Shown here: one piece after another, positions 26,270 through 64,000 of the stretch
How positions within the stretch are numbered: position 1 is the stretch's first letter
How the letters are laid out: the number at the start of each line of letters is the position of its first letter
Assembly: GCA_009746045.1 (NCBI GenBank)
Contig: RPFO01000164.1
Location: 2,346,321 to 2,410,320, forward strand
DNA length: 64,000 bases
Source of the DNA: Mesostigma viride
Lineage: Eukaryota > Streptophyta > Mesostigmatophyceae > Mesostigmatales > Mesostigmataceae
Direction of reading: 5' to 3'
The notes under the pieces: model-generated
What the model was told of the DNA's origin: nothing
Database searches by the model: none
Seen by the model: only the letters and a program-made list of their open reading frames with translations
Position numbers and translations under genes: made by a program

Positions 26270-27481
26270 TTACTGGCCCTTGCCGAACTCAATGCCCTTG
26301 TCCACATTGCCCTTGAGCATGTCCTTGGCCTTCTGAAGGCCCTCTGTCTCAAACGCGGACAGGGTGCCCAGGGGTAGGATCTCCTCGACACCGTTGGGAC
26401 CCAGGCGCACCTTTGAGGCGAAGAAGGGCTGGTCTGGGTATAGCGGCGACTGCACGAACGTGCATTCGTGCACGTTCGTCTCGCCATTCAGGCCACGCAG
26501 GAGAGACTCGGTGAAACGAGCCGCTGCGTAGGCCATGGACAGGGTGGCCGAGCCGGCACCGCCCTTGGCCTCGACGACCTCAGTGCCGGCCTCCTGGATA
26601 CGGCCAGTCAGAGCGACCAGCTCATCCTGGGTGAAGGTGACCGCTGGCTTGGTTTGGGAGAGCAGTGGCAGGATGGTCACGCCAGCGTGGCCTCCGACGA
26701 CGGGGACGTCGACATCCTTGACGTTCAGGCCCTTCTTCTCAGCGACAAAGGTGTTGGCACGGACAATGTCCAGGGTGGTCACACCGAACAGACGCTTGGG
26801 GTCGTACACGCCGGCCTTCTTGAGCACCTCGGCGGCGATGGGGACGGTGGAGTTGACCGGGTTCGAAATGATGGCGATCAACGCCTTGGGAGCGTTCTTG
26901 GCGATGGCCTCGATCAGGGTCTTCACAATGCCGGCGTTGATGTTGAACAGGTCGTCACGGGTCATGCCGGGCTTCCGGGGCACACCGGCAGGGATGACAA
27001 TAAGGTCCATGCCTTGAAGGCAGGCAGCCAGGTTATCGGCTCCCTGGTAGGCCTTGACCTGGCAAGGAGTGTTGCAATGGCTCAGGTCGGCCACGACGCC
27101 ATTGACATTAGCGATATCGTAGCAGTGCAGCTCGCCGATGTGAGGGCTCATCTTCAGAAGCAGCGAAAGCGGCTGGCCGATGCCGCCGGCAGCGCCGAGA
27201 ACCGCCACCTTCTTCGCGGCGCATGAGGTCACCTCCCGGCGACCGGCCTGCACGTGAACGTCCATACGGCTTTGGCGAGCCTTAAAGGGAGCGCTGTCGG
27301 AGCCCATCACGAGATGTTGAGGGCGGGCGCCGGAAAACACCGTCAGCGAAGATGGCAGGGTTGCACGAGGCGCCTGCACAGCGGGGGCGCTGCGGGTTGA
27401 TGCCGAAAAAGAAGCTACCGATGCAGGGCTACAGAACTTAACGGTAGCAACATTGGCGACGGAAAGAGACGCGGTAGCCAT
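26270..27481 (-). CDS. MDH: NAD-dependent malate dehydrogenase, plastid-type
   Basis: Intact 403-residue ORF, ATG at 27481, no introns. Residues 1 to about 85 are Ser/Ala/Arg-rich with almost no acidic residues, like a chloroplast transit peptide. The mature enzyme begins near [20 protein letters not shown] (Rossmann dinucleotide loop). Acidic CYDI after beta-2 suits NAD(H). Substrate-binding arginines lie in [27 protein letters not shown] and the catalytic His in [16 protein letters not shown] are present. It converts malate and oxaloacetate in the plastid and serves NADH balance and redox export. The length fits plastid MDH. The overlapping plus-strand ORFs are antisense shadows. Confidence 0.96.
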
Positions 27482-28262
27482 GGTTGTTGTTGGTTATGGA
27501 GGGAAAGTGGCCTTAAACGCGAAGAAGATCAGGAATATGCCCGAGATAGAAAGCACAACCTCAAGTCGTGCGCAAATTTGTGTCCTCCGACGTGGTTTCG
27601 TGCGTGCAGTCGGTGCAGTGCGCTTCTTTCTTGAAAAGTCTGCTGAGCTCACGACACACGTCAGAGGACGCTGTGAGCGGGTTACAGGCTGGCCAGCGGA
27701 ATTCAGCCCGAGTCGGCCCTTATGCGGGTCACACATGTGGCACCGTTATCAGCCGGCTGGCAACACAGCGTGTCAACTTGTGTGACGTCACTTGTGTGAC
27801 TCTATCGCTACCACTAATATAGCACTACTACGCTTCGCTGCCACTCCGTTATATATTTGAGGCTATTGAAAGGAGGACGCACGTGCGCGGGAACCACGGT
27901 GATGTGCACACGTGACGTGACGGGTTGGCTATGAAAATTCAATTTTGTGAGAAAGTGGAAGGGACGACGTTTGACGTCTGCAACAGGTCTGCAACTATAT
28001 CCAGAAATGGCTGTGACATGACGTTCAACATGCAGTGCAAAGGTTGTCAGCTAGCGCCCTTACATACTGCGTGACTGCGACGTGGACAGGATATGCATGT
28101 TACTAGACCTTGCGGTGCAGTTAATAAACCCATGGAGAGACAGATAACCGGCCGTGACAGCACACATGGTAAAGAGCGGCCGAATGAGAAGGTATTAAGT
28201 CCCGTTCTACTTTACTTGACGCAGTGCTGTCCATGCTGTCCAAGCCTGTGCAGGTACCCACA
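27482..28262. promoter_or_regulatory. Shared upstream region of MDH (-) and the cysteine-rich gene (+)
   Basis: Divergent intergenic region of about 780 bp with no ORF I support. An AT-rich motif (GTTATATATTTGAG, about 27848-27861) could serve as a TATA box for MDH if its leader is about 350 nt. Several TGTGACGTCA-like (CRE/bZIP-type) motifs lie at about 27781-27790. Confidence 0.35.
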
Positions 28263-29984: not shown

Positions 29985-30666
29985 GCAGCAGAACCCTTCT
30001 TGTACAGCATGACTCGGATATATGCATGGCCGTCCAGTGCCACTCAGCAGGCGGAGGCTGATCAGAGAGCAGAACACGGTACTTGCACAAAGCCAGCAGA
30101 AGCTCCTGAACCACCAGGTCAGGATCGAGTCTTCAGCAGCTCCGCCGCATTTGGTGCATGGTCTGCACCAACCGCCACGTCGCGTATACCGCATGCAGGC
30201 GAGCAAGGGCAATGTCCCGGTTCCTCCAACCAAAGTGAAGGGGTGGACGATGTCGTTGGTGGCACTTGAGGCAACCCTCCTTCAAGGCGGGGACTTGGTA
30301 GTCCGCGCGGCCAAGGAGGGCGCCGCAGGCGGCGGGGGGGGGGGTCCAGCAACACCATGCAAGACGGGCAGCCATCTCGGGGTGAAGCGGCGGGGGGGGG
30401 GGGGGGGAGCCCCTCCTGCATGTGAAGGAAACGTTGTGGGCGCCCCGACCAGCGGTTGGCGCCAACCGCTGGTCGAGGCGGCTGACCGGCGCCGCGCTGT
30501 CCCCCGTGTGCTCCACCTGCATGGGTGGCGGGTGCGCTGCCGCCGGGGCCCCGCCGCGAGCCGGTCGAGGTCAGCTATATACCACATATCCTTGCCCTGC
30601 ATGTTTGCGAGCTTGGCAGGCCTTGGCATCGATCCGCGATGCACTGGGCCGGCTCATGTGCACAGA
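29985..30666 (-). pseudogene. Unrecognised minus-strand coding remnant, interrupted by the 8.1-kb transposon
   Basis: GC-rich minus-strand frame with protein-like segments (ALKEGCLKCHQRHRPPLHFG; AVYATWRLVQTMHQMRRSC) broken by frameshifts and poly-G runs. Its upstream part continues beyond the transposon at 38798 to about 38900 (minus, LLKPVLKAALVEAYAHAQDV). The two halves meet in one frame when the transposon and one TCT are removed. The CxxC-type motif suggests another mobile-element protein, but I do not recognise it. Confidence 0.4.
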
Positions 30667-30698
30667 GGGCTGTTTTTTTTTAGTATGTTAAAATCCAG

Positions 30699-31310
30699 GG
30701 TTTATATTTTTAATAAACCCTTGAATCTTTATTTCTGCTTTATTTCTTGTTGTTTCGTCATAAACTGTTACGCTAACTATGTGAGAAGGAACAAGGGATT
30801 AATGTGTGATTGTTCCCCATGCTTACCACACATGGATTGCCCCATTAAATTAAATTAAATTAAATTATAACATGTCTCCGTTGGGAGATCATGTAGCACA
30901 TATTCCAGGTTGGATGATTGCCCCATTCAACACCACATACACTTGCCGTCCAGGTTTTACATCTCGGCTCGGGTAGCGTCAAATGTGGGCGAGCTGCAAC
31001 TTCTGATTTGCTGCTCAAATAATGCTTGATTTGAGGACCAGTGCCGCACTTGGAGCCAGTTCTTATGTAATGCACTATTCATGACTCCAATATGGTATAA
31101 AAGCAATCATGTAACTGACACCATGGCACAGGTATGAGGCGTCTTGATGATCAACATGTGGAACAGTAACACTTCATTGACAGGCTGGCTTCAATTGCGT
31201 GCTTGCTATCATAATTGTTAACTAGTGCCATAGTAGCCTGATAGCAAGATCGCGGCTCCGCGGAAGGTGACCACCAATTGCATTCACCAGCATTAAATAT
31301 GGTCATCTTG
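30699..31310. other. Left subterminal region of the 8.1-kb transposon, no ORF
   Basis: Non-coding, AT-rich next to the TIR (TTTTTAATAAACCC near 30706). It carries the 69-bp LINE-end insertion described separately. Confidence 0.5.
30847..30915 (-). mobile_element. 69-bp insertion made of the LINE hairpin and tail only
   Basis: ATTAA-type tail plus TAACATGTCTCCGTTGGGAG hairpin and TGTAGCACATATTCCAGG on the minus strand. It is flanked by a perfect 12-bp direct repeat GATTGCCCCATT (30835-30846 and 30916-30927). This is an extreme 5' truncation inserted by target-primed reverse transcription after the DNA transposon had landed. Confidence 0.85.
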
Positions 31311-31311
31311 G

Positions 31312-31505
31312 CAGCGGGCAGCGGGCAGCGGGCAGCGGGCAGCGGGCAGCGGGCAGCGGGCAGCGGGCAGCGGGCAGCGGGCAGCGGGCAGCGGGCAGCG
31401 GGCAGCGCGCAGCGGGCAGCGCGCAGCGGGCAGCGCGCAGCGGGCAGCGGGCAGCGGGCTGCGGGCTGCGGGCTGCGGGCAGCGGGCAGCGGGCAGCGGG
31501 CAGCG
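31312..31505. repeat. (GGGCAGC)n heptamer array
   Basis: About 27 units of a 7-bp repeat with GCGCAGC and GGGCTGC variants. It lies in the left subterminal part of the 8.1-kb transposon. Overlapping Pro/Ala/Arg ORFs are artefacts. Confidence 0.95.
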
Positions 31506-31760
31506 GGGCGAAGTACTGCCAAAAAAAGGGACCCTGTTTTGGGCTGGGCGAAGCCAGCGGGTGCCACTAGTGCTATTGTAAGACAGACCACAATGGCCAC
31601 CGAGCAGCCCACCCATGCCGTAATGTCATCCCGTCATGTCACGGCATGCCACACACCAAGCATAATACACGCCATGCAATTAAGCATCTCGACCACCCTA
31701 CACTCCCGGCTGGCCCATGCCGCCCACGCCACCCGCGCCACACAAGGCAAGACAATGTAT

Positions 31761-34700
31761 TCAGTCATCATCCATGCTGTCGTTCTCCTCGTCGCTGGGC
31801 TGGCTGGCCTCCTCCACATCCTCCTCGCCCAAGTCACTGTCCTCCAAATCTGCAGCATTGTAGGAGTGACGCGTGGCAGTTGCCGCCCGCCTCAACTGCT
31901 TCCTCCCTCCTCCGAGGGGTGCCGCACGACTTGTGCCAGCTGCCGGGTGCGCTGGCGGCTGCCCGCGCCTCCCACGAGTCTGCACGCCCCTACCGCCTCG
32001 CGTAGAAGGCTCCGCATGTGCGGATGCATCCTCCTCGGCCACGTCAGGCTCAGCCCCTGCAGTCTGCCCAGCCGAGCCCTGCAGCTTCAGGTCCCCCGCT
32101 GCAAGAATGCCCTCCTCAAGCTGTGGGATAACGATCCCAGGGCACGAACACAAAAGGGACTGCAGGTTCAGGTATGAGCATTGATGCCAATATGATTCCT
32201 CCTCCCATGCATGAGTCGGGTCATCTTGCCAGCGGATGAGGGCCATTTGACGAGCGGCATCCACCGCCGCCACCCTGCCGTGCTCCCGCCTTGCCTGAAA
32301 CATGGCGCACACGCGCGTGCCCACCGGAATCCCGCCAGCCACGAGATCCTGGAACGCGCGGCTTGCGGAGTCCTCAGTCGCCTGCTGGGAGACGTAGCCA
32401 TCCCATTTCATCGCCGTGACTAGCGCGGGCGTGTTGGCGATGGCGTCCCTTGTGTTTTTCAGCAGCACGCCGTCCTTGCTGAGTGAAACGGCATACTTCT
32501 TCTTCCCCTTGTTCCACGTGGACAAGAGGATGGACGAGGGTGCCACCTGAAAAGTGTGCTTCGGCACCCCTCTCGGCGGTGGACAAATGGCCGAGTGAGG
32601 GCTCCAGCGCTGCCACTTCCCAAAGTAGGACGGTGCGCGGAAGCATTCCAGCTCGTAGCGCTGCCCCTCCGTGCCTACCTGAGGTGGCACCACGGACGCC
32701 ACGGTGGCGTAGACCACTGGCGTCCACGTGGGGCTTGACGCCACGTGCTCCGGCAAGACTGCCAGAACACTGTCACCTGCTTTCAACGCATCGCAGGCGG
32801 TGCGTGACGCGACCTGCAGCTCGATGCGGTGATTCGCCCGCTCCCATGCAGCCTGCGTGAAGCCGGCGTGGCGGACCGGCTCGACCAGGGGCTGCGCGAT
32901 GCGAGCCGCCTCTGTGGCCAGCTCGACCAGACGTTCGTCCCGCGTCAGCTCGGGAGTAGGCGCTGCCGGTGCACGGCCGCGAATGGCACGTACCATGGCG
33001 GGTGTCAGCCACGGCTCGATTTCCCACTCCACCGGGACTGCGCCGGGCTGCCTTGGGAGCTTGTCCAGCCAGTCGCCCCACGACAGGAGCTCAGGCATGC
33101 AGCTCGAGAAATAGCGCCGCAGGTTCGGGTTGCCAGGGATGCCCGCAATCACTCGCTTGATGCGCGGGAGCTCATTCTTGAACCAGTCCGCGTCGAACGG
33201 ACACCAGGGCGGCGGCGTCTCCAGGTCTTCCATCGGCGTGCCTGGAGCAAACACCCGGCACCCATAGTAAACCTCCCCGTCCTCGGTGTACATGGGCTGT
33301 CCTTCCTTAAAGCCCACCGGGAACCAGGTGCCGCGGCGGAGAAGCTGCCACCCGAAATATGCCCGGCCATCCTCGGCCTTGCGAAAATGGGTGTGGTGCG
33401 GCTTAGCTGACGCTGGCCCCTTGTAGGGAATGCTGTCGGGCCCGATGTCTTGGCAAAAATCGGCGCTGTTGGCCCACCCAGCCAAGTCCTTGTCCTTATG
33501 CTTCGCGATCCAGGCGGCCACGTTGTAGGCTTGAGCCAGCATCCGCACCATCGTCCCGTCCGGCACGTGACGCATCTTGGTCGGGTCGGCATCTGAGTTC
33601 TTGAAGGCATCCTTCCAGCCCCCGATAAACGCCTCTAGCGTCGCATAGGGTGTGCACTCCAAGCCGGAGCGTCCGTCCTTCATGTAACCCACACCGATAC
33701 CGAACATCTGGTCTGGGTCACAGTGCGAGTGGCCCCTCAGCAGGCGGTGCAGGAAGACGTTCTTGAACATGCCGGTGGCCACCAGCATCCCGGCCCAACA
33801 CAGCACCGTGTTGTTTCGGTTTTCGCTCCCCCCGTCAACCTGCACATGGAGGTCAGGTGGCATTGGCCTCCCGTCCTTCGCCCATGGCTCAGCCTTGCAC
33901 ACCAGCGAGAGAGCATCCATCAGCATGGTGACAGTAAGGGAGCCCGTCTGCCCCTTGGTCAACAAGTAGGGCAGGCCACAGTAAAAGAGGGCCTTCCAGC
34001 CATGCACCACGCACGCGTACCAGGAAAACGGGAACACGCCGTCAGCCACTTGCTTCCACACATCGGAGCCGTTGGAGAGGAAAGGCACGCGGCTCTTCTG
34101 CTTGTCCATCTTGTCGATGACGATCTGCAGGAACGCCCAGAGACACAGCGCGAGCATGAACTCGTGCCTGCGCTCGTAGAAGTATCGCCTCTCATCTCGG
34201 TGGCTTGCGTTGTGCAGGGCCCACGCTTTCTCGTACGTGGCGCGCAGGTCCTGCCGCTGCCCGATGCCCCTCCGCATCTCCCTGAGGTTGGCGCAGTCGT
34301 TGCAGATGCCGGCATTGCGCTTGAAAATCCTGAAGACAATCTTGGGGGAGCCAGGGTGGTAGTTGCCCTCTGCCACCTTGAGCCACACCTCACGAAAGGC
34401 CTTGTAGTTCAGGTGGTCGCCCACCATGCTACGCACATCCTCGCAGTAGTCCTGCTCCCAGATCAGCTTCAGACAGTCGAGGTCCAGCTGCACCACATTC
34501 TCACCGCTCGCTGGGTTGTAGTCGCCCTTGCTCTGCGCGTACGCAATGATCCAATTGGCAGTCACCTCCCTCACCTCACTGCGACCGGTGATCCGCGCCG
34601 CCTTGTCTGCCTGCTGCAGCTGTTCAGAGGTCAAGCCTAGCTCGTCGAGGGTGATATCATCGTAGGCGAACTCGCCCGACTCGTGCACAGACTCTGCATG

Positions 34701-35279
34701 CACCGCCGCCTTCAAGAGACTGTGCCACACAGGTGCCGAGATGCACAGGACAGCCTGGATAACCTTGTGGCAGGCGACAATCTCGGCCTTGTCACCATTT
34801 GGCATGCTCACAGGCAGGGACATCTGGCCCTTCACATCGTACTTCCAATAAATCGGATGCGTGCCTCCCGGCGGCTCGACGACGATGTTCTGAAGTCCGT
34901 GCTTCTGCAGCAGACTGACCACGAATTAGCTGCGCTCCTCCTGCTTTTGCAAGCCAAGGTACTTTTCTCTGGCTGCACACCAGACTCGGAAATCCCGGAC
35001 TGAGGTGCCGACTGGTCCCATGCAATCCTTTTGGCAGCATGTGCGAATAAGGCTCATGTCAGCGACGATGACGCTGTCCACCAGTTTCTCCGACCGCACC
35101 GTGGCGATGCTCTTTCTCCCTGCTTGCCTGAGTTCGCTACCAAGGCAGCCAGCTGCCCCCGGCTGGTTAGAATCCGTGCCGAGGGAGCCAACATTGGTGA
35201 CGCACACGCTACCATCCGTGTCGACAAAGGCTGCTGTCCTGCCGCCGGGGGTGGCTGACCTCGAACAAGAAGACGCCAT
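31761..35279 (-). CDS. DUF7869-type putative transposase, one in-frame stop
   Basis: First ATG at 35279 lies in the left palindrome arm. The frame runs to a TAA at 34928-34926 and then stays open in the same frame for 1053 residues, total about 1172 codons. The leader has CCQKDCMGPVG, a Cys-rich start typical of this family. In the long part (numbered from 34922) are CNDC (207-210), H237/H241 and SHRDERRYFYERR, DKMDKQKSRVPF (about 270-281), HVQVDGGSENRNN (D363) and RLLRGHSHCDPDQMFG (393-408). The last two blocks match DUF7869, common in eukaryotic transposon-like proteins; an RNase H-fold nuclease core is inference. The C-terminus is Arg/Gly-rich then acidic. The stop may be a recent mutation (CAA or GAA origin) or a read-through site. 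Confidence 0.7.
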
Positions 35280-36944
35280 TTTCAACGCATGGTGCGCAGC
35301 TGTCAACTGAACGTGGACCTGTCCACATGACCGACTGATAGAGAAACTAGTAGTCAATGCACAACTCCTACAGAAGACTGAGCTAATTTCCACACATTTA
35401 CATCAGTTCATCCTCGTAATGCATTACTACCTCGTAACACATTCACAAGCAGTTAGTCGACAGTGGCAAAATGCAGTTGCCGCGGAAGTACGCAGGTTGG
35501 CGTGGGACAAGCCAACCTGGCAGTGAAGTGTCATGCATAATACGCGGGGAAGCACCTGAGTTAGGCGGGAACTGGGAAGTCGAGTTGGTCGGCGAGCTGA
35601 CAGGTTGTTCACCGACTTGCAGGCACCAAATTACGAGATGGTCAATTGCCAACCGAGATGTCAAGTTGTCAAACGAGATGTCAAGTTGACAACCGAAGTG
35701 CCTCCTGAACTGTCAACTAAAAGTCTAAAGCCGCAATCGACAGTACTACAAGTTGACAGTTCAGAAGGTAGGTCGGTTTTGCGCAATTGCCTACCTTCTG
35801 AACTGTCAACTAAAAGTCTCAAGCCGCAATCGACAGTACTACAAGTTGACAGTTCAGAAGGTAGGTCGGTTTTGCGCAATTGCCTACCTTCTGAACTGTC
35901 AACTAAAAGTCTAAAGCCGCAATCGACAGTACTACAAGTTGACAGTTCAGAAGGTAGGTCGGTTTTGCGCAATTGCCTACCTTCTGAACTGTCAACTAAA
36001 AGTCTAAAGCCGCAATCGACAGTACTACAAGTTGACAGTTCAGAAGGTAGGTCGGTTTTGCGCAATTGCCTACCTTCTGAACTGTCAACTAAAAGTCTAA
36101 AGCCGCAATCGACAGTACTACAAGTTGACAGTTCAGAAGGTAGGTCGGTTTTGCGCAATTGCCTACCTTCTGAACTGTCAACTAAAAGTCTAAAGCCGCA
36201 ATCGACAGTACTACAAGTTGACAGTTCAGAAGGTAGGTCGGTTTTGCGCAATTGCCTAGTTGACAGTTCAGGAGGCACTTCGGTTGTCAACTTGACATCT
36301 CGTTTGACAACTTGACATCTCGGTTGGCAATTGACCATCTCGTAATTTGGTGCCTGCAAGTCGGTGAACAACAACCTGTCAGCTCGCCGACCAACTCGAC
36401 TTCCCGCCTAACTCAGGTGCTTCCCCGCGTATTATGCATGACACTTCACTGCCAGGTTGGCTTGTCCCACGCCAACCTGCGTACTTCCGCGGCAACTGCA
36501 TTTTGCCACTGTCGACTAACTGCTTGTGAATGTGTTACGAGGTAGTAATGCATTACGAGGATGAACTGATGTAAATGTGTGGAAATTAGCTCAGTCTTCT
36601 GTAGGAGTTGTGCATTGACTACTAGTTTCTCTATCAGTCGGTCATGTGGACAGGTCCACGTTCAGTTGACAGCTGCGCACCATGCGTTGAAAATGGCGTC
36701 TTCTTGTTCGAGGTCAGCCACCCCCGGCGGCAGGACAGCAGCCTTTGTCGACAGGGATTGTAGCGTGTGCGTCACCAATGTTGGCTCCCTCGGCACGGAT
36801 TCTAACCAGCCGGGGGCAGCTGGCTGCCTTGGTAGCGAACGCAGGCAAGCAGGGAGAAAGAGCATCGCCACGGTGCGGTCGGAGAAACTGGTGGACAGCG
36901 TCATCGTCGCTGACATGAGCCTTATTCGCACATGCTGCCAAAAG
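35028..36944. repeat. 1.9-kb palindrome: inverted arms around a 93-bp array
   Basis: Left arm 35028-35720 and right arm 36257-36944 are near-identical in opposite orientation, with scattered substitutions and a few 1-4 bp indels. For example, the right arm has an extra CAA near 36367. Identity starts exactly at GCCAAAAG/CTTTTGGC, where the two genes diverge. Each arm holds a GTC..GAC-rich inner part, a non-coding stretch, and the shared coding leader. Confidence 0.93.
35701..36262. repeat. Six 93-bp tandem repeats, each with an internal inverted repeat
   Basis: Units start at about 35701, 35794, 35887, 35980, 36073 and 36166. Each has ACCTTCTGAACTGTCAACT ... AGTTGACAGTTCAGAAGGT, so every unit can fold. 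Units are almost identical (one AAGTCTCAAG variant in the second). 93 is divisible by 3, so long ORFs appear on both strands; I treat them as non-coding. Confidence 0.95.
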
Positions 36945-38013
36945 CACGGCAACAAGACAAAAGAGGAAGGTGGCACCTTCTGCTGACAAGGAAAACATTC
37001 CACCAACATCCAATTGCCAAGCTAAGGGCGTATCCAGGGCAGCTAAAGGCAGGGTTGCTGTGGTGTCTGTGGATGACGATGAGGATTGGATTGGTCATGG
37101 TGCGGACATGATGATTACAGACACCGACGATGCAACCATGCTTGCACACCAGGAAGCACAGCGACTGGCGACCAGGCAAAGCGTGCAGCGCGCATCTGAC
37201 AACAAGCTGCAGCAGTACACTAAGGAGCTGGAAAATGCAGCTGGAGAGCGGCGCAAGATGGAGGAAGAGCGGCGCAAGATGGAGGAAGAGCGGCGCAAGT
37301 TGGAGCAAGAGCGGCGCAAGTTGGAGCAAGAGGTGGCGCAGCTACGTAAGCGCGGGGAGGAGTCGCAGCAGCCGCAGTCGCTGTCGTGGCAGCAGCCGCA
37401 GTCGCTGCCGTCGCAGCAGCCACAGTCGCTGCCGTCGCAGCAGCCGCAGTCACTGCCGTCGCAGCAGCCGCAGTCGCTGCCGTCACTGCCGTGGCCACTG
37501 CTGCAACGGCAGCAGCCTCTGCCGCCACCACCATCACCACAGCCATCGCAAACAAGTCAGCCGATCCTGCAGCAGCTGTTGGACATGTTGGAGTCGCAGC
37601 CGCACTTGCAGCCGGTGCCATCCCCGCCGTGGCATCTAGTGGAGCAGCAGCCGCGGGAGCAGCAGCAGCAGTTCCTGCAGCAGATGTTGCAGCCTGTTCA
37701 GCCGCAGTTGCAGCGAAACTATGGGTTGCTGGGCATCGGCATGGGCGATACATCAGCAGTCAGAAGCATGAGCGACCGCGGTGTTCTCAACCATTCAGGC
37801 ATGGCAGCTGACCATGGTGTACAGCTAGCCATGCACCGGCTGGCAGACACGATGGATCGCTTTGCATGCCTCCTAGTACCTAACAGCCGTACTGAGTCCC
37901 ATGGCGCTCTGCCACTGTCGGCGTACCATGGCAATGCCAGCGCGGGGCGCGGGTTGCCGTACCAGTTCAACGGCAGCATCTATGGGCAACCTAGCGGGTG
38001 TCACATGCAATAG
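36693..38013 (+). CDS. Coiled-coil, Gln-rich protein of the 8.1-kb transposon
   Basis: The open frame of the distinctive part runs from about 36930 to 38013. Only a GTG at 36970 precedes its first ATGs. The right palindrome arm supplies an ATG at 36693 (leader MASSCSRSATPGGRTAAFVD, the same as the transposase leader), but that frame ends at 36986. Either a small intron joins leader and body or initiation is internal. Features: KRKVAP basic motif near the start, acidic patch DDDEDW, heptad coiled coil (ERRKMEEERRKMEEERRKLE) at about 95-125, QQPQSLPS repeats, His/Pro and Gln runs, and a globular C-terminal segment. Probably a DNA-binding or multimerising accessory protein; function unknown. Confidence 0.5.
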
Positions 38014-38434
38014 TAGGTGCTGCCATCCTTTTGTTAGTGGCTGACCAGTGACCAAGGTGGAGTGACCTATCGGTGGAGACAACTTTCTTGCCAATGTGGC
38101 TGGCTTTTAGTGGCTACCTTGGACATAGCAGGATGACAAGGTATTGGGCTTGCGAAAAATGTGATGGCCAAGAGAGTCAGCATGTAAGCTGGCTGCCATT
38201 TCGTCTTGACAGTGCCCAGCTGCACTTGACATCATAAAGGTTCTTGTGCTGGGTCCCTCATGCAATATACTTGGACTGCAGCTCCTTGATCAGTAGTTGT
38301 TGTGACTTCAAACTGCATTGGCATGGTCATAACACAGGCAAGTAGGCGCAAGAAGCACACACACACATCATTGATGAAAATCACGCGCATTGTAATATGG
38401 CATGGGATGTGCCAGGGCACTTAATTGGTGCATG
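38014..38434. other. Right part of the 8.1-kb transposon, non-coding
   Basis: 3' flank of the coiled-coil gene; no ORF that I support. Confidence 0.5.
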
Positions 38435-38660
38435 GGGCATGGAGCATGGAGCAATCAGGCCATATGGCCGGGCATGGGGGGCTTGGTTTTGGGCACATGG
38501 GGCATGGGGCATGGGGCATGGGGTATGGGGGAATGGGAGCAACGATGTTTGACAGTTGGCTTGCGGTTCGTGGCATGTGTGGCATGGAGCATCGAACATG
38601 CAGTAGAAGGGCATGGGGCATGGGGCATGATGGGGCATGAGCCACATGTGGGGCATGGGG
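38435..38660. repeat. (GGGCATG)n degenerate heptamers
   Basis: About 25 GGGCATG-like heptamers, many imperfect, 140-360 bp from the right end of the transposon. Compare GGGCAGC near the left end. Confidence 0.85.
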
Positions 38661-38904
38661 CATATTAGAGCATCACTAGGGCACAGTTCCAGGGCATGTG
38701 GCAGGTGGTTTAGGTGGCCAAAAGCATGGGAAATGTCGCATCTTGATAAATTTTTAATAAACGGTTCAGATTTTAACATACTAAAAAAAACCAGCCCAGA
38801 CTACGTCCTGAGCATGTGCGTAGGCCTCCACAAGGGCGGCCTTGAGCACCGGTTTCAGCAGCGGGTCGATCCCGGTTACGCTTGAGGCGCGGGGCAGCTA
38901 GGAC

Positions 38905-39974: not shown

Positions 39975-41970
39975 GGCGTGCCTCCCATTAAATAATTAAT
40001 TAATTAAAATCATAGCTCCGTTGGGAGCATATGTAACACATAGCCCTGAGAAAGGGGCATCTATGGGTTTGTAATACAATCAGGGCTACAACCTGCAGGT
40101 GGAGGATGTACAACTGTCACCTGCTCTGGGTGCACAAGGTGCACCTGCACCGCCATGATGGTTCATGCCTCCTTATCAAGCACAGGCACCCAGGGGGGGC
40201 TTGAGGAGAGGGCCTAGAAGGCCTGCATGACATATGGGGTGGAGGGTATGTGGCTAGGCTATAGCTGGTGTACACATGGCATCTCAGCAGAGAGTAACTC
40301 CCTGCATAGGCATCGCATGGCTAAATTCTTAATGCATCATCCATGGGAGGTCCCATTGTAGGCTGGGCGCGGCTAAATACTGAAAGCAACATCCATGGGG
40401 GCCATTATGGGCGCACATGCGCGTGGGCCACTTGCAAAGGCTAAGCCTATCTAATCTACACTACTGGTATATTCCCTAGTCTGGGGTGGCAGGAGGGGCC
40501 TGCCAGGGCTTGTGGTCAACGTGGATGACCGCCCCCCTCCAGTATACCGGCTTCCCCCCTGCACGCTGCCGGAGCTGAAGGTAGGTCGGCCATAGCTCGC
40601 GTCGCCGCTGTTGCTGGGCCAGGGTCAAGTCGTCGTCCAGCGTGAAGCGAGTCTCCGCAAGCTTCTTGCGGCATTTAAGGAACGCCAGCTTGTCCGTCAT
40701 GTACTTAAAGGTGAGGAGCACGGGTGCCGGGCCAGCCTTCCCCCGCGCGCGGGGGAGGCGGACAGCCGACATGTCCAGCTCACCAGTGAGTAACATGGGG
40801 GCAAGAATGGCGCGCTTAACTGCCTCAAGGAGACTCGTGGAGGTCTCACCTGCCGGCTGGTCGAAGTGCTTGACGATGACATTGTGGCTGCGCTTGTCGA
40901 GCTCGGCCGCCTCGCGAAGGTCGAGGGCTTGTTGCTTGAGTTGTGCCGCGATGGTGGAGGTGGTGGAGGTGGTATGATGCTTAAGCAAGTCCGCCCAGGT
41001 GGAGGGAACATCACTGGCCGGGCCAGCAGGTGCCGGCTGGGCAGCGATTTCCTGCACCGCTTGGGCGGTGAGGCCGGCGGTGTCATGCAAGCTCTCAAGG
41101 GCGGTGGCGGTGGCTTGAAGGCGTTGGTCGAGGTCGAGGAGCTGGGCTTTGATGTCGGCAGTGAAGGCGGAAACGGCGGTGGAGGTGGAGGCGGCGGCGG
41201 TGGAAATGTGAGGAAGTTCAGCAGTCAGCGTGCCGCCGATTGCTGAAATGTCGGCAGCAAGGGGGGTCACGTGCTGCTGAAAGGCTTCCGCGAGGATGGA
41301 ACGAAGGGTGGAGGCGGTGACGGTTGCAGCCCAGATCTCGCCGTCGGAGCGCTGGAGAAGGGAGTTGAGGATGGCGTGCTGGAGTTCGGGGCGGGGGATG
41401 TTTCCGGGCAGCGGGAGGGGGAGCCATCGGCGGCCGTCCGGGAGGAGGAGGCGACGGTTGGAGTGGAGATGGTGGCACAGGTCGTGAAGCGAAGCGTAAT
41501 CCCCGAAGAAGATGCAGCGCATAGCATCGGTCGGAGAAATGGTGGCCCAGTCGTAATCTGCGACCTTGAAAGGCCGGGGCCGAAAGCGCGGTTCTGAGGG
41601 GCTTGAAGACCCTCCTGTTTGGTCGGCTGAGCGGGTGCGCTTGGGGTCAGGCGATGCAGATGGCGAGGCGTTAAGGCCGGGAGGTTGCTGGACGACCACC
41701 AGTGCACGACTAGTGTCATCGCCGCCTGCCGGACCTGATGGCGAAGCTGCAGCCGGAGCTGCAGACGTATTTTCATTGCCGAGCGCAGCCGCCAGGCTGC
41801 GTTGCGTATCTAGGCGCGTTTATTCGCCATATATTGCGTAATAGCGTCGGGAAATTATATCAGCATGTGCGTCTTAGAAAGACGAAGCGATTGTGATATT
41901 CACGGCTAAATTCGGTGCTCAAACGTGAAAGTTATGAGCTCCGACAGCCATGGCTACCTCGTGGCCGGAA
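39975..41970 (-). mobile_element. Family B ORF1-only LINE derivative, nearly complete
   Basis: Minus strand: 5' UTR 41970-41836, ORF1 to 40476, 3' UTR 40475-40020, hairpin CTCCGTTGGGAG (about 40016-40027) and AATTAATT tail (39985-40008). No ORF2. Its 5' UTR matches those at 24440 and 53055. Confidence 0.85.
40476..41835 (-). pseudogene. LINE-type ORF1, family B (one N-terminal shift)
   Basis: The start ATG at about 41833 (MANKR) runs into a stop at once because of a small indel. The frame that follows (QRSLAAAL..) is open to 40476 for about 440 residues. Domains: Pro/Ser N-terminus; conserved block around YDWATISPTDAMRCIFFGDY and LHDLCHHLHSNRRLLLPDGR; Thr/Ala-rich helical region; RSHNVIVKHFDQPAGETSTS; and C-terminal domain with LDDDLTLAQQQRRRELWPTY and GKPVYWRGAVIHVDHKPW. 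The C-terminal block recalls the L1 ORF1p RNA-binding/C-terminal domain. Only one mutation separates it from an intact ORF. Confidence 0.8.
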
Positions 41971-42824: not shown

Positions 42825-44700
42825 ATTGAATTGAATTGAATTGTAACATAACTCCGTTGGGAGTATATGTAGCACACAGCCCTTGAGAGGGGGGCATATG
42901 GCCTATCATACATCCTAAGCTACTTCCTGCAAGGGTGGGGATGTAAAGGACCCTTGCTCTAGGTGCACCAGGGCACTTGCATCCCATGATCTTCAAGCTA
43001 TGCCCAGCGAAGGGGGAGCCTGTCATGGGGGGGAAGAGCAGCATAGCTATACAAAGAAGCTAGGGCATGGCGTCTCAGCAGAGAGTTACTCCCTGCATGG
43101 GCACAACATAACTAAATAAAGCTAGGCATCATCTGGGGTGTGGCTCATCATAGGCACACATGTACATGATTAAGGAAAGCGCGTGGCTTAGCTAGGATAG
43201 TGCCTCTAGGAGGCGTACATGTACATGGCCACGGTCTATCTATTCTGCACTACTACTGCTGTATTCCCCTAAGCTGGGGCGTCTGGAGTCGCTGGGGCCG
43301 CGGGGGGGGGGGGGTCGCCTGCCAGGGCTTGTGGCCGACGTAGATGGCCGCCCCCTTCCAGTACACCGGCTGGCCCGCCTTGGTCTGCCGGAGCTGGAGG
43401 TAGATCGGCCATAGCTCCCGTCGCCGTTGTTGCTGCGCCAGGGTCAGGTCGTCATCAAGGGTGAAGAGAGTCTTCTCGAGCCGCTTGCGGCGTCTGAGAA
43501 AAGAAATCTTGTCCGCCGGGGTCTTAAAGGTGAGAAGGAGCGGGGGCGGCCCTGCCTTACCCCGCGCGCGGGGAAGGCGGTGGGCGGCCAGCGCGATCTC
43601 ACCGATAAGGCCCATGCGACCAAGGATTTCTCGCTCAAACGCACGCAAAAGCTTCTCGGAAGTCTCACCTTCCTCCATGGTGAAGTTCTTGACAATGACG
43701 TTGAGGCTGCGCTGGGCGAGCTCGGCCTCCTCGCGGAGGTCAAGCGTCTGCCGTTGGAGCTGGGCTGCGACGGCGGAGGTGGTGGAGGTGGTATGTTGCT
43801 TAAGCATGTCCGCCCAGGTGGTGATGGGAGGAGCATCGCCGGCCAGGCCAGCCGGGGCTGGCTTGGCGGCAATGTCCTTCACCGCCTGGGCGGTGAGGCC
43901 TGCCGTGTTCTGCAGAACCTCGATAGCGATGGCGTTGTCCTTAAGACGCTGGTCGATGTCACGGAGCTGGGCGGTGATGGCGTCGGAGGTGGAGGTGGTG
44001 GCGGTGGAGGAGGCGAGGAGGGTGGAGGTGGCGGTGGAGATGGTGGAGGTGGCGGTGGAAAGGAGGGGAAGCTCGGCAGTCAGCGTGCCGCCGATGGCCG
44101 CCACATCTGCAGCAATGGGGTCCACGTGCTCCTCGAGGACCTCCTTAAGGAGTGAGCGGAGGGAGGATTCGGTTAAGGTGGTGGTGAGAGGCTTGGGGGG
44201 CCAAAGCTCCCCGATGGAGCGTCCAAGGAGGGAAAAGAGAGCGAATTGCTGGAGGAAGGGGCGGTGGAGGCTGGGAATGATGTCGAAAGAGGCGAGACGA
44301 ACCCAGCGAGGGTCAAAGAGGCGACCTTGGTTGAAGAGCTGCTTGCATAGTGCAAGAAGCGAGGCGTGCGTTCCATAAAACACGCAGACCAGGATGCGTT
44401 CCGGGTTAAGCGTGTCAAGGAAGCCGGGCTGGCTGGCTTCGGCGACAAAGTCGAGCTCTGTCCAACTCGGCTCGGCAGAGCGACTGCGCTTGGGTTCAGG
44501 CGACGCTGCGGGCGAGGCGGGCTCAGCAGGCGGCTGGGCGACCACTAGAGCTTGGCTAGTGGCGCCGCTGCCTTCTGGGCCGGTTGGCGAAGCTGCAGCC
44601 GGGGCTGCAGACGTATTTTCATTGCTGAGCGCAGCCGCCAGGCTGCGTTGCGTCGAGAGGCGTTTGCTCATCGTATAGTGCTCGTGGCTATAACGACATG
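42825..44700 (-). mobile_element. Family A ORF1-only LINE derivative, apparently intact
   Basis: Minus strand: ORF1 44671-43253, 3' UTR 43252-42870 (includes the empty TTAA site near 43174-43190), hairpin CTCCGTTGGGAG (about 42852-42863) and a CAATT pentamer tail (42825-42845). The 5' limit just above 44671 is not defined. No ORF2. Confidence 0.85.
43253..44671 (-). CDS. LINE-type ORF1 protein, family A, intact (472 aa)
   Basis: ATG at 44671. Order of parts: basic N-terminus (MSKRLSTQRSLAAALSNEN); Pro/Ala linker with KRSRSAEP; conserved alpha/beta block at about 85-185 (VCVFYGTHASLLALCKQLFN, FLQQFALFSLLGRSIGELWP, SLRSLLKEVLEEHVDPIAAD); Ser/Thr-rich helical region to about 260; coiled-coil-like REEAELAQRSLNVIVKNF at about 305-325; PRARGKAGPPPLLLTF; C-terminal LDDDLTLAQQQRRRELWPIY at about 405-424; and GQPVYWKGAAIYVGHKPW at about 433-450. 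The arrangement (variable N-term, coiled coil, RRM-like, C-terminal basic domain) fits L1-type ORF1p, an RNA chaperone of retrotransposition. The intact frame suggests a recent arrival or selection. Confidence 0.8.
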   Translation of the reverse strand: MSKRLSTQRSLAAALSNENTSAAPAAASPTGPEGSGATSQALVVAQPPAEPASPAASPEPKRSRSAEPSWTELDFVAEASQPGFLDTLNPERILVCVFYGTHASLLALCKQLFNQGRLFDPRWVRLASFDIIPSLHRPFLQQFALFSLLGRSIGELWPPKPLTTTLTESSLRSLLKEVLEEHVDPIAADVAAIGGTLTAELPLLSTATSTISTATSTLLASSTATTSTSDAITAQLRDIDQRLKDNAIAIEVLQNTAGLTAQAVKDIAAKPAPAGLAGDAPPITTWADMLKQHTTSTTSAVAAQLQRQTLDLREEAELAQRSLNVIVKNFTMEEGETSEKLLRAFEREILGRMGLIGEIALAAHRLPRARGKAGPPPLLLTFKTPADKISFLRRRKRLEKTLFTLDDDLTLAQQQRRRELWPIYLQLRQTKAGQPVYWKGAAIYVGHKPWQATPPPPRPQRLQTPQLRGIQQ

Positions 44701-45056
44701 TATGTCAAGCGATAAGTCGTATTGATAGATTTGGCCACGTAATTACCCAACTTTAAAAAAAAATGATGGCCCCATGGTGGAAACCAGTGTTACGTCGGCC
44801 AAGTGGTCTTGTTGGACCTGCCTAAATAAATAATCTGTGCTAAAAACGGAACAAACCACCAGAACAAAGTAGACCACCTGAAAAATGCCATGATGCCTGA
44901 GGTACCATGGTTGACACAAAATATATGTGAGTAACTTCATTACACCCTGCAGCGTCCGTAATCCACCAGAACTGCACGTGATTCATGCCGTCCACTTTAT
45001 CAAGTTTGGGAAAGAAGCCAGCAGCACCAGCAACAGCGAGAATGGCCAGAGAGTGC
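44701..45056. other. No gene recognised
   Basis: AT-rich spacer between the family A element and a possible exon; a poly-A run at about 44755-44763. Confidence 0.4.
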
Positions 45057-60621: not shown

Positions 60622-63600
60622 TTAGACAGCTTGCTGAGATGGGTCCATCAGAGACTGAAGAACCTTGTATTGCACTGCTGCCTTCTGCACTAGCTTGGTC
60701 AAAGCATCAGCAGGATTGTCAACCCCAGGGATATGCTCAATATTGGCCAAGGAGGACAACTCCTTAAGAAGGAGATAATCCAAGTCCCTACTTCTGGCCA
60801 TCTGCCTGTGCACAAACTGCACCATCCCCATGGAGTCTGTTTTTAGAAGAGTGGTAACCTGAAGTGGCCAAGGAGTGTTAGAAGTCATCTGATGAAGCAA
60901 CTCCTTCAGATAAAGGCTTGTGTGAATGCCTTCACAAATAGCCCTGCATTCTGCCACATCACTGCTGACAGCCACCCGTTTGTGCAGGCGACTAAACCAG
61001 CTCACCAAACTCCCCAGGCCTTCCTGTCTGAGCACAAAGAGCCCTGCAGCCCTGCCCCTGACCTTGGAGACCTGCCTGCTGTCCATTGAGCTATCCACAT
61101 ACAGCTCCATGCAAATGGGTTGTGATAAATCCACTGCAGACAACAGAATGCCAGATGAAGCCCTGACCTGATCAGCCACCTTGGCAGACCCTAGCTCCAC
61201 CAGCATGTCATCAGGCAACCTGGCTATGACCATAAGGTCTGGCCTGGAAATGCCTGCCACCCAAGCAACCATGCCCCTCACCATGGGACACAGTGCCTGT
61301 GTGATGGTTGGAGGAAGCTTGCTAATGAGGGTCTCTTGATAGTCATTGCCCCCCACCAGCAGCATACGCCACTCCCCTCCCTTCTTCACCAGTGTGGCCT
61401 CCATGCCCACAAACAGCAGAGGCTCATTCTCCACCTGCCATTGCTCCCTACCCAGAGGAAACTTGGACTTAATGATGGAGATCAGCTCCTTAAGCCACGA
61501 CGTGGGAGCTATCAGATGTAGGTCATCCCCGTGCAGCGAAGCATACACTGGCAGGCCTTCCCATTGCCCCAGAAACAGACAGGGGTCTACAGGAGAGACC
61601 TTCAAGTTGCAATGCTCCTTCAGGAAACGGTTGAGAGTCTCCCTCCAGATTATTGGACTTGACCTCAGGCCCTCCAGGCCCTTGAGGATTTTAAGGAACT
61701 CCGTGTGGATGTCCCTTTTCCATACAGCAGGCACCCTAACATAGAAAGGCGTCTTGCCCTCCCACTTTTCCTGTGCCACATCTGCATCACCCTCCAGAAA
61801 TGCCCTCTTGAAGTCTATCACCACTGAGCCATAGTCCAAGCCCTTGTTGAGAAGGCCTAGAAAGACACACAGCAGCAGCCTCCAAGTATCATGCAGCATG
61901 CCAGGGGTATACAACTCCTCAGCAGTGCACTCACCAGTACCCTTGAACTCATTCAGCACTGGCCTGACATGTGGTACCTTGACCCCGTCCACCTCCTTCA
62001 TCTTGATGACAAACTTGAGCTTGAGTAGACGTCGTGCAGGAGGCAGGTCATTGACAGGTTCCACGCATTTCTTGGAGATCCAGTCCTCCCCAGATTTAAT
62101 CAGACCCAGTGTGACCTGGGGACACATAATGGGAGAGGACATGAGCTTCACCAGGCCTTGGTAGTTGATAGGGCTGTGTCCAGCAAGTGAGTGAGGACCA
62201 ATGCCCAAACTGCTTGGATGACTAGCAGCTGGCAGTATGAGGTCATCAACCAAGGGCTCCTGCCCCTGGCACACTTGCACACGCTTAACCGTCCTGGTTA
62301 CTGCACGTGATAGGTGAGTGGTCCTGAAATTAATCAGTGGGACCTGACCAGCCCCTTCCTTAGTCAGGAGAGAGGACGTGATCACTACCCCATCCTGGCA
62401 TAGGAAATTCTGCCCCAGAAGAGCAGGTCCTTGATAGCCCTCCAAGACACAAAAAGCAGTGTCCTGTCCAAGGATAGGAATGAATACCTCACCCAGTACC
62501 TTCACGTGTACCCCGCCACTGAAGTCAGACACAAACTGATAGCTGGGTTCAGACATGCTGTACCCTGCTGCAGCCCTGGTCCCAATAATGGAGACCTGAG
62601 AATTAGTGTCTACCTCTAAGGCAGTGTCCAGCCCCAGATTGCCATGCCACCTGAGCTTGGCTACCTTGGGCTGCTTCTTGGCCCTTTGTAGAGCCCCAAT
62701 CAATCCAGCCAAACTTGTCCCCCTGGGCTTGGTTAGTGCCTTGGGCTTGACAGTTGACTCCCCAGCTGTTGACCTTGCAGCCTGTTCAACAAGTACCTCT
62801 GCAACCTGGCCAGGGCTGACAGATTCCCCTGCAACAGATGTGGTCGTTGCGTCAGTGATGTCACCTGGGACCTGAAAATCCTGCAGATCCTGTGAGCCTT
62901 GTGCCTGACTGCCCTCATTCATCAGGTTAGGCTTGACATATGACCAACTCAGCCGGTGTACATGCTTTGGTTCGTCCTCCATGCTGACCAAGCATGCGTG
63001 GCTAGCTTCATCAACCTGGGTAACCACCCCAGGACTCCAGCTACCACGTTTGCCATAAAGGCTAGGTTCCTTCCAAGCTAGGACCTTCTGACCCACTTGT
63101 GGCTCCAGCATCTTCCAACCCCGGTCCTTCTCCCTCAGCTTGGCAAAGGTGACATGTGCAGCATGTTTCCAGCCCTCCAGCACATGTGGTGGGCACAGGC
63201 CATGATATAGACCCATTGGGCTGACAGCAACTCCATCATAGTAGAAGTTAACCCTGCTGTTCAGCTGCTGCTCCACGTTCCTCAGCCATGCACTCCTGAC
63301 AAGTGCAGGTGCAGACAAGGGTACCCAGTCTTCAGAGATGATCAATTTCTTGACCTCCTGGATTGCCCTCTCGATAGCACCCTGCTGCCCATGAGCCTCC
63401 CTAGGTGTAACCAGCAACTCAGGAAGGGTAGGATCACCCTTGAGATGCTGAAACTGCATGTCCACCTGGATCCTTGTGGTAGGAAACTTGGCTCTTACAT
63501 TCTGCAGGGCAGCCAGCAAGTACCTGTTCTTCATAGAAGGTAAATGCTCCAGCACCTTGTATTTCGTGTACCTGTCCACGCACACCAACAGTTGCATGCC

Positions 63601-63987
63601 CCTGATGTGTTGGATATCACACTGCAGATCACCAATGCTCTGAGGTAGAGCTTTGGCATGTGATTTCCTGGGCTTGTTGGAGGACAACTGGCACTTACAC
63701 CGTGAGGCAGCTTGCTGACACGCCTTAAGAAGGGGTGCCCTGCCCATACGGAAGGCAAAGTTGTTTGACAGAGAAGTGGCATGCCCAAACATGTTGTGGA
63801 TTCGGGCACCCAACTCCTGGTACACAGAGGAAGCAGTCCCTGGCACAGTCAGGACTGTGCTGTCAGGTTGTCCAGCATCACCATGCTGACTTCCATCCTG
63901 TTCTGACTCAGAGCCTGAGTCACCCTGCTCATGCCCAACACCTGGACCGCCAGCAGGGACCACATGCATACCACCAGAGGCCTTCAC
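60622..63987 (-). CDS. Retrotransposon Pol: integrase, protease-like, RT, RNase H
   Basis: Open to the window edge (1121 residues seen; the first Met may be internal). Order: HHCC zinc site (H64, H69, C90, C97/C99); integrase core D124 (LQCDIQHI), D176 (IQVDMQF), E206 (GQQGAIER); integrase C-terminal segment (SWSPGVV, 315-321); protease-like domain with DTNS at 460-463 and GPALLGQNFL at 520-529; RT with FVIKMKEVDG (659-668), VVIDFKRAFLEGD (D725) and LHGDDLHL (D821, D822); and RNase H with YVDSS and VSWFSRLHKRVAVSSDVAEC. The end IEHIPGVDNPADALTKL is typical of Copia-type Pol. Integrase before RT also fits Copia (Ty1), but the protease lies after integrase and has N where DTG/DSG has G. Confidence 0.85.
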   Translation of the reverse strand: MKASGGMHVVPAGGPGVGHEQGDSGSESEQDGSQHGDAGQPDSTVLTVPGTASSVYQELGARIHNMFGHATSLSNNFAFRMGRAPLLKACQQAASRCKCQLSSNKPRKSHAKALPQSIGDLQCDIQHIRGMQLLVCVDRYTKYKVLEHLPSMKNRYLLAALQNVRAKFPTTRIQVDMQFQHLKGDPTLPELLVTPREAHGQQGAIERAIQEVKKLIISEDWVPLSAPALVRSAWLRNVEQQLNSRVNFYYDGVAVSPMGLYHGLCPPHVLEGWKHAAHVTFAKLREKDRGWKMLEPQVGQKVLAWKEPSLYGKRGSWSPGVVTQVDEASHACLVSMEDEPKHVHRLSWSYVKPNLMNEGSQAQGSQDLQDFQVPGDITDATTTSVAGESVSPGQVAEVLVEQAARSTAGESTVKPKALTKPRGTSLAGLIGALQRAKKQPKVAKLRWHGNLGLDTALEVDTNSQVSIIGTRAAAGYSMSEPSYQFVSDFSGGVHVKVLGEVFIPILGQDTAFCVLEGYQGPALLGQNFLCQDGVVITSSLLTKEGAGQVPLINFRTTHLSRAVTRTVKRVQVCQGQEPLVDDLILPAASHPSSLGIGPHSLAGHSPINYQGLVKLMSSPIMCPQVTLGLIKSGEDWISKKCVEPVNDLPPARRLLKLKFVIKMKEVDGVKVPHVRPVLNEFKGTGECTAEELYTPGMLHDTWRLLLCVFLGLLNKGLDYGSVVIDFKRAFLEGDADVAQEKWEGKTPFYVRVPAVWKRDIHTEFLKILKGLEGLRSSPIIWRETLNRFLKEHCNLKVSPVDPCLFLGQWEGLPVYASLHGDDLHLIAPTSWLKELISIIKSKFPLGREQWQVENEPLLFVGMEATLVKKGGEWRMLLVGGNDYQETLISKLPPTITQALCPMVRGMVAWVAGISRPDLMVIARLPDDMLVELGSAKVADQVRASSGILLSAVDLSQPICMELYVDSSMDSRQVSKVRGRAAGLFVLRQEGLGSLVSWFSRLHKRVAVSSDVAECRAICEGIHTSLYLKELLHQMTSNTPWPLQVTTLLKTDSMGMVQFVHRQMARSRDLDYLLLKELSSLANIEHIPGVDNPADALTKLVQKAAVQYKVLQSLMDPSQQAV

Positions 63988-64000
63988 ACCCCTCTGTGGT

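Follow-up and report, generated by a model that had tools for sequence, protein, structure and literature searches.

A recently mobile family of terminal-inverted-repeat transposons carrying a DUF7869 gene and a divergent partner gene in Mesostigma viride

A second open reading frame (ORF) aids transposition in some CACTA families, according to excerpts of PMC4158355, and the enzymes of EnSpm type carry C(2)C and H(3-4)H motifs between the second and the last acid, as given in passages of PMC12730594. A literature search returned no paper mentioning DUF7869, and broader searches showed none on the element family described here. For the alga Mesostigma viride, the excerpted text of the genome paper (PMC7027972) reports automated repeat finding and an estimate of 329 Mb, versus 439.9 Mb for the assembly used here. 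We analysed a stretch of 64,000 nucleotides of this genome (the window; assembly GCA_009746045.1, contig RPFO01000164.1, positions 2,346,321 to 2,410,320 of the forward strand), which contains a transposon with a gene for a DUF7869 protein. The element belongs to a real, recently mobile family of DNA transposons with terminal inverted repeats (TIRs). It is highly probable that the window element is a damaged member of this family, in which the DUF7869 protein would serve as a DDE/D transposase and a second protein as an accessory factor.

The ends of the window copy are intact, and the features that define them are as follows.

30667-38797 (8,131 bp): whole element, window copy
30664..30666: left target site duplication (TSD), AGA, duplicated at 38798..38800
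38798..38800: right TSD, AGA, duplicated at 30664..30666
30667..30695, plus strand: left TIR with the tip GGGCTG; other copies have identical ends
38769..38797, minus strand: right TIR
31310..31507: GGCAGCG heptamer array of about 28 units by the left end, differing in length among copies

The near-perfect TIRs of about 29 bp and the flanking AGA described in the initial annotation were both recovered: the two arms were 29 nt long and 97% identical, with one mismatch. The TIR core occurred at only two places in the window and in none of 100 shuffles, and the fixed ends of the family read GGGCTGGTTTTTTTT... The further claim that a broken flanking frame becomes continuous when the insert is removed held only in part. 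A joined minus-strand frame exists, but no frame runs through 29985-30666, and because the joined frame has only 62 codons (97 nt on one side and 89 nt on the other) it was rejected as poor evidence.

With up to 3 mismatches allowed, a 22-base TIR core was found at 77 places in the genome, versus 4 for the reversed control; the copies had these TIRs in common and ended at the same bases, as the initial annotation had expected of a defined element. Target duplications were read from 31 entries, namely the window, 20 fetched copies and the ends of 10 further copies. Three entries with one side at a contig end (C1209 and two fetched copies, L038 and L049) and four whose flank was common with another entry (C1332, L043, L046 and L050) were set aside, and an exact 3-bp duplication lay at the same boundary in 21 of the 24 distinct readable insertion sites. 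The expectation over 2,000 re-pairings was 1.4 on average and 6 at most, and a 4-bp duplication was found at none of the 24 sites. Among the entries set aside, C1332, L043 and L046 also had a 3-bp duplication. The 21 duplications comprised 17 different sequences, with a weak symmetric target preference for A or T at the centre (32/42) and for a purine four bases off centre (35/42); both strands of every site enter these counts, which makes their p-values too optimistic. The continuous empty site that the initial annotation had looked for around the window copy was found for another copy, L042, whose flanks, joined by a single AAA, agreed in all 117 bases with an uninterrupted paralogous stretch of the same locus. 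L033, L034 and L036 sit in tandem repeats, and uninterrupted units span their insertion sites too. TIR transposons are recognised by inverted repeats common to paralogous copies and by a target duplication of fixed length, and this family has both.

Some insertions showed further features. The flank of L039 (C398) recurs near the insertion, empty and in inverted orientation (L016:611-961); the empty paralogue of this copy is imperfect, and no clean 3-bp duplication is seen at its filled site, which has two duplicated bases and a surplus CTG. L050 (C1146), C1332 and C1209 have one flank in common; on the opposite side L050 and C1332 are unlike, and of these two only C1332 carries a duplication, AAA. 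This pattern may reflect either recombination between copies or an assembly join.

Twenty-one copies, including the window copy, were read whole. Eight belonged to a 6.3-kb class and ten to a 7.1-kb class, the rest being L032 (7,930 bp), L045 (9,186 bp) and the window copy. L031, L033, L035 and L047, at four sites, were identical across 6,323 bp, and L034, L036, L039, L042, L044 and L046, at six sites, across 7,110 bp. Because copies at different sites are identical, the family moved very recently, unless the assembly homogenised them. The DUF7869 core was present only in L045 and the window copy, and since it was missing from 19 of the 21 whole copies, most of these copies would rely on a transposase made elsewhere. 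Relative to L045, a piece of about 2.8 kb was gone from L031 and L034. The second gene was open in L031 and hence in its three identical copies; in L034, and hence in the five copies identical to that one, it was frameshifted.

The window copy carries the following parts of the two genes.

31761..35279, minus strand: DUF7869 gene, encoding a putative transposase, with its start codon at 35279 and a TAA within the frame
34926..34928, minus strand: stop codon TAA that ends the DUF7869 frame; L045 has the sense codon CAA here
33699..33941, minus strand: stretch matching positions 38-112 of the 192 in the Pfam DUF7869 profile, containing DGGSENRN and GHSHCDPDQMFG
36919..38013, plus strand: remnant of the second gene, with a basic stretch RQKRKV (about 36955-36972), a coiled coil and a Q/P-rich tail; no zinc-motif exon

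The assignment to DUF7869 (PF25273) in the initial annotation was confirmed by a match of the window protein at E 4.8e-12 and 46.3 bits, the curated cut-off being 26. In L045 the ORF is intact, with 1,172 codons beginning MASSCSRS; its protein also matched DUF7869 above the curated cut-off and no other Pfam-A model up to E 10. A scan against NCBIfam gave no matches. A protein search showed that the gene model Mesvir1/6999 has 100% identity to the DUF7869 protein across 85% of the latter. Protein searches for homologues outside the alga gave P0001 and P0002 only, and none were found in the viral contigs or genome contigs searched.

The domain is common in this genome, with at least 150 Pfam DUF7869 matches among 275 candidates, all 150 above the cut-off, and there were none in 14 control genomes. 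Four of these matches were read: L071 and L072 form one subfamily, and L073 and L074 represent two others. The proteins of L071, L073 and L074 were 32-35% identical to the window protein. An alignment of the window, L045, L071, L073 and L074 proteins (the near-duplicate L072 was omitted) revealed the common motifs DK-x-D, TVTMLM, DGGSENRN and GH-[ST]-H-x-D-x-D-Q-x-FG, among which D-K-x-D, DGGSENRN and H-x-H-x-D-x-D were invariant across four diverged proteins. Counted from the ATG at 35279, the candidate acids are D389, D482 and D521 or D523, with 92 residues separating D389 from D482 and 38 separating D482 from D521. The order of the invariant acids fits a DDE/D enzyme, and we infer that DUF7869 may be a DDE/D-type transposase.

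The L071 subfamily has TIRs of its own, close to GGGTGGTTTTACCGGATTAGGATACATTT, and the bounds of one element are C347:43494-54708. Duplications were readable in three of the four copies inspected (CG in C347, AA in C1756 and AT in C1749), the 5' end of the fourth, C1934, having been missed. They suggest a target duplication of 2 bp, with the caveats that C1749 also allows a 3-bp ATG and that only two left bases were fetched for C1756. Its second gene is divergent and has a zinc motif, a basic stretch and a Q-rich coiled coil; that of the L073 subfamily has the same parts, with the coiled coil in another frame. Weak Pfam matches in L071 (E 0.053) and L073 (E 0.025) did not reach the cut-off and were disregarded as chance. 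Tandem or palindromic repeat arrays lie upstream of the DUF7869 frames of L071, L073 and L074, their sequence being unlike the 93-bp array of the window family. A repeat array between divergent genes may be a family trait.

The association of the two genes was examined at the 87 best-scoring of the 150 DUF7869 matches (at least 59 bits), with a distance of 12 kb; the other 63, from subfamilies that the L077 query was not expected to find, were omitted. The second-gene set consisted of every match to the second protein of L077, 98 in total, some of them pieces of one gene. A second-gene match lay within 12 kb at 83 of the 87 places and was divergent in all 83. The places lacking one were C785, C911 and C966, where the start is at most 3.6 kb from the contig start, and C1679. 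Conversely, 89 of the 98 second-gene matches had a DUF7869 neighbour and nine had none.

The coiled-coil partner named in the initial annotation is present in the window as an ORF on the strand opposite to the DUF7869 gene, and its Pfam coiled-coil matches were weak and below the cut-off. More of this gene is kept in other copies. In L045 it diverges from the DUF7869 gene on the far side of the 93-bp repeat array; an exon carrying C-x-G-x-C-G...H..C...W-x-C-x-x-C would be followed by a predicted 429-bp GT..AG intron and then by RQKRKV and the coiled coil. The L031 version stays open over 794 codons and encodes a PHD-like zinc motif, a coiled coil and a Q/P-rich tail. The zinc motif could be aligned in all three second proteins examined. 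RQKRKV is presumably a nuclear-localisation-like stretch. We infer from these parts that the second protein may be an accessory DNA- or chromatin-binding factor.

The initial annotation had also described a complete-looking element with divergent genes around a palindromic core, for which the central features are as follows.

35021..35719, minus strand: left palindrome arm, DUF7869 gene start and upstream DNA
35701..36258: central array of six 93-bp units; a related array is present in L045, L031 and L034
36257..36951, plus strand: right palindrome arm, a second and inverted version of the DUF7869 gene start, in the place of the 5' part of the second gene
36693..36986, plus strand: duplicated DUF7869 start as a short ORF that ends in a stop

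A long inverted repeat does surround the array of six units, but it is private to the window copy, and both genes are damaged. In the palindrome, the start of the DUF7869 gene and its upstream region are repeated in inverted orientation (551 nt at 99%, or 695 nt at 98%), and in L045, L031 and L034 the 5' part of the second gene occupies the position of the right arm; the inverted repeat of L045 itself is only 78 bp. Among hits longer than 150 nt, the right arm had no match in any of the 20 other copies, a result that rests on the absence of matches across the arm because L045 and the 6.3-kb copies have the two-arm marker in altered form or lack it. Since the 20 other whole copies lack the right arm, the palindromic core is a rearrangement confined to the window copy; a strand switch in the course of repair is its probable origin. 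The palindrome was accordingly rejected as the normal core of the element, having been seen in 1 of 21 whole copies. Nor did completeness hold, given the TAA in the DUF7869 frame and a second gene without the 5' part kept in other copies. Judged from its sequence, the window copy as it stands can make neither full protein, and the informative zinc-motif part of the partner is missing from it.

In the proposed mechanism, the DUF7869 protein would bind the TIRs, excise the element and join it to a new target cut with a 3-bp stagger, and gap repair would yield the target duplication. The second protein, with its PHD-like zinc motif, basic stretch, coiled coil and Q-rich tail, would assist as a DNA- or chromatin-binding factor, a role likened to that of the CACTA second ORF or the Myb-like protein of the Harbinger group. 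The central array may be a shared promoter region or binding site, and the copies without a DUF7869 core would be mobilised in trans.

Several results weigh against this interpretation. Three of the 24 sites (L032, L039 and L040) lacked the 3-bp duplication, as did L050 among the entries set aside, and the identity of copies could partly reflect homogenisation by the assembly. An AlphaFold model of window residues 101-560 with P0001 and P0002 was poor (mean predicted local distance difference test score 38.6); a single DUF7869 protein matched no solved structure, and the DUF7869 profile gave three hits only among solved structures, at E 0.6-0.8. For the second protein, the Pfam PHD match, seen in one subfamily, was weak (E 0.023, below the cut-off), the L045 protein had no Pfam PHD match, and the predicted splice sites are our own reading. 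No copy read had both genes intact, the second frame of L045 stopping early at a TAG after 569 codons.

How the family should be classified is a separate matter. Quite possibly, if tentatively, the DUF7869 elements form a previously undescribed superfamily of eukaryotic DNA transposons, with a constant pair of divergent genes, one for a DDE/D transposase and one for an obligatory PHD-like zinc/coiled-coil partner, placed around a tandem-repeat core, and with TIRs starting with GGG and duplications of 2-3 bp; among the copies read, L045 would supply the transposase and the 6.3-kb class the partner. The element family may already stand in Repbase under another name. A possible but more doubtful alternative places the family in a known superfamily whose duplications are 2-3 bp long, CACTA/EnSpm or Harbinger (PHIS) being the likeliest, as a diverged branch that has DUF7869 for its transposase domain. 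CACTA elements have two ORFs and 3-bp TSDs in the excerpts of PMC4158355, and in those of PMC4482050 the autonomous candidates of several PHIS groups mostly have two ORFs, with 3-bp TSDs and TIRs that often start with A or G. However, the tips here read GGGCTGG and not CACTA, the L045 protein matched nothing in Pfam-A besides DUF7869, no CxxC was found from the second acid to HxHxDxD, where the EnSpm-type motifs are placed, and there was no Myb/SANT match in the scanned parts of the second gene (the start of L045 exon 2 lay outside the scan).

It is improbable that DUF7869 is a passenger or helper and that another, unseen protein mobilises the ends. The role of DUF7869 as transposase is read from sequence, and 19 of the 21 whole copies were mobilised although they lack its core; such core loss, however, is expected of non-autonomous copies if the transposase is supplied in trans. 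DUF7869 is moreover the sole large enzyme-like ORF in L045, its proteins have invariant acids, and the same two-gene arrangement recurs at 83 of the 87 tested places. It is very improbable that the window copy works as it is, by readthrough of the TAA or a downstream restart and with the palindrome as a working promoter core: the gene model P0001 begins downstream of the TAA, and this codon also occurs in L032 and the ten 7.1-kb copies (the marker at the site is absent from the eight 6.3-kb copies), but the 7.1-kb copies are near-identical, so one event can explain the sharing, L045 has a sense codon there, three paralogues read on through the site, none of the 20 other copies has the right arm and the zinc-motif exon of the second gene is gone.

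Around the element, the window holds the following ORFs.

26273-27493, minus strand: ORF with the two lactate/malate dehydrogenase domains Ldh_1_N and Ldh_1_C (Pfam, E about 1e-46); it is a host gene, and the element lies about 3 kb away
40479-41819 and 43256-44704, both minus strand: ORFs with very similar starts (TQRSLAAAL..ENTSAAPAAASP), apparently duplicates from their sequence; no Pfam match
60625-63999, minus strand: long ORF, probably a Copia-like retrotransposon; its RVT_2 reverse-transcriptase match (E 3.7e-6) is weak and does not reach the Pfam cut-off

The reading of the window element as a damaged member of a mobile family with a DUF7869 transposase assigns a domain that had no known function to a mobile element defined by its ends, a target duplication, a recurrent partner and signs of very recent movement. 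The home for DUF7869 that the initial annotation had foreseen thus exists in the M. viride genome, complete with paralogues. The function of DUF7869 is thereby directly testable, since the element's ends are available together with an intact DUF7869 ORF and an open partner gene. If the zinc motif of the partner does read chromatin, the transposon would carry its own targeting protein. For annotation, many of the DUF7869 matches in this genome look largely like transposon genes and not host genes.

Compared with known systems, the family resembles CACTA/EnSpm in its two ORFs and 3-bp TSD (excerpts of PMC4158355). It differs in its tips, which are CACTA (CAC..GTG) there and GGGCTGG or GGGTGG in the DUF7869 elements, in the missing CxxC, a comparison that depends on which residue is the last acid, and in that the DUF7869 protein matches no other Pfam-A transposase model. 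With PIF/Harbinger (PHIS), and Nuwa in particular, it shares two ORFs, an often 3-bp TSD and short TIRs; however, the partner is Myb/SANT in Nuwa (both points from excerpts of PMC4482050), as in the canonical group, and PHD-like zinc/coiled-coil here, the 21 duplicated sites of the window family have 17 different sequences, and the Harbinger-type transposase domain was not matched in L045 in the Pfam-A search up to E 10. Zator also has a 3-bp TSD (passages of PMC10045372); its transposases are related to ISAzo13, and the window family was compared with it by TSD length alone. Sola2 elements are likewise large TIR elements with a long transposase, but their TSD is 4 bp and AT-rich (excerpts of PMC3627910), and Kyakuja-Dileera-Zisupton (KDZ) elements have TSDs of 7-8 bp (passages of PMC12730594), in contrast to 3 bp in the window family. 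The Pfam entry for DUF7869 gives no function, whereas in the window the domain lies in a delimited mobile element.

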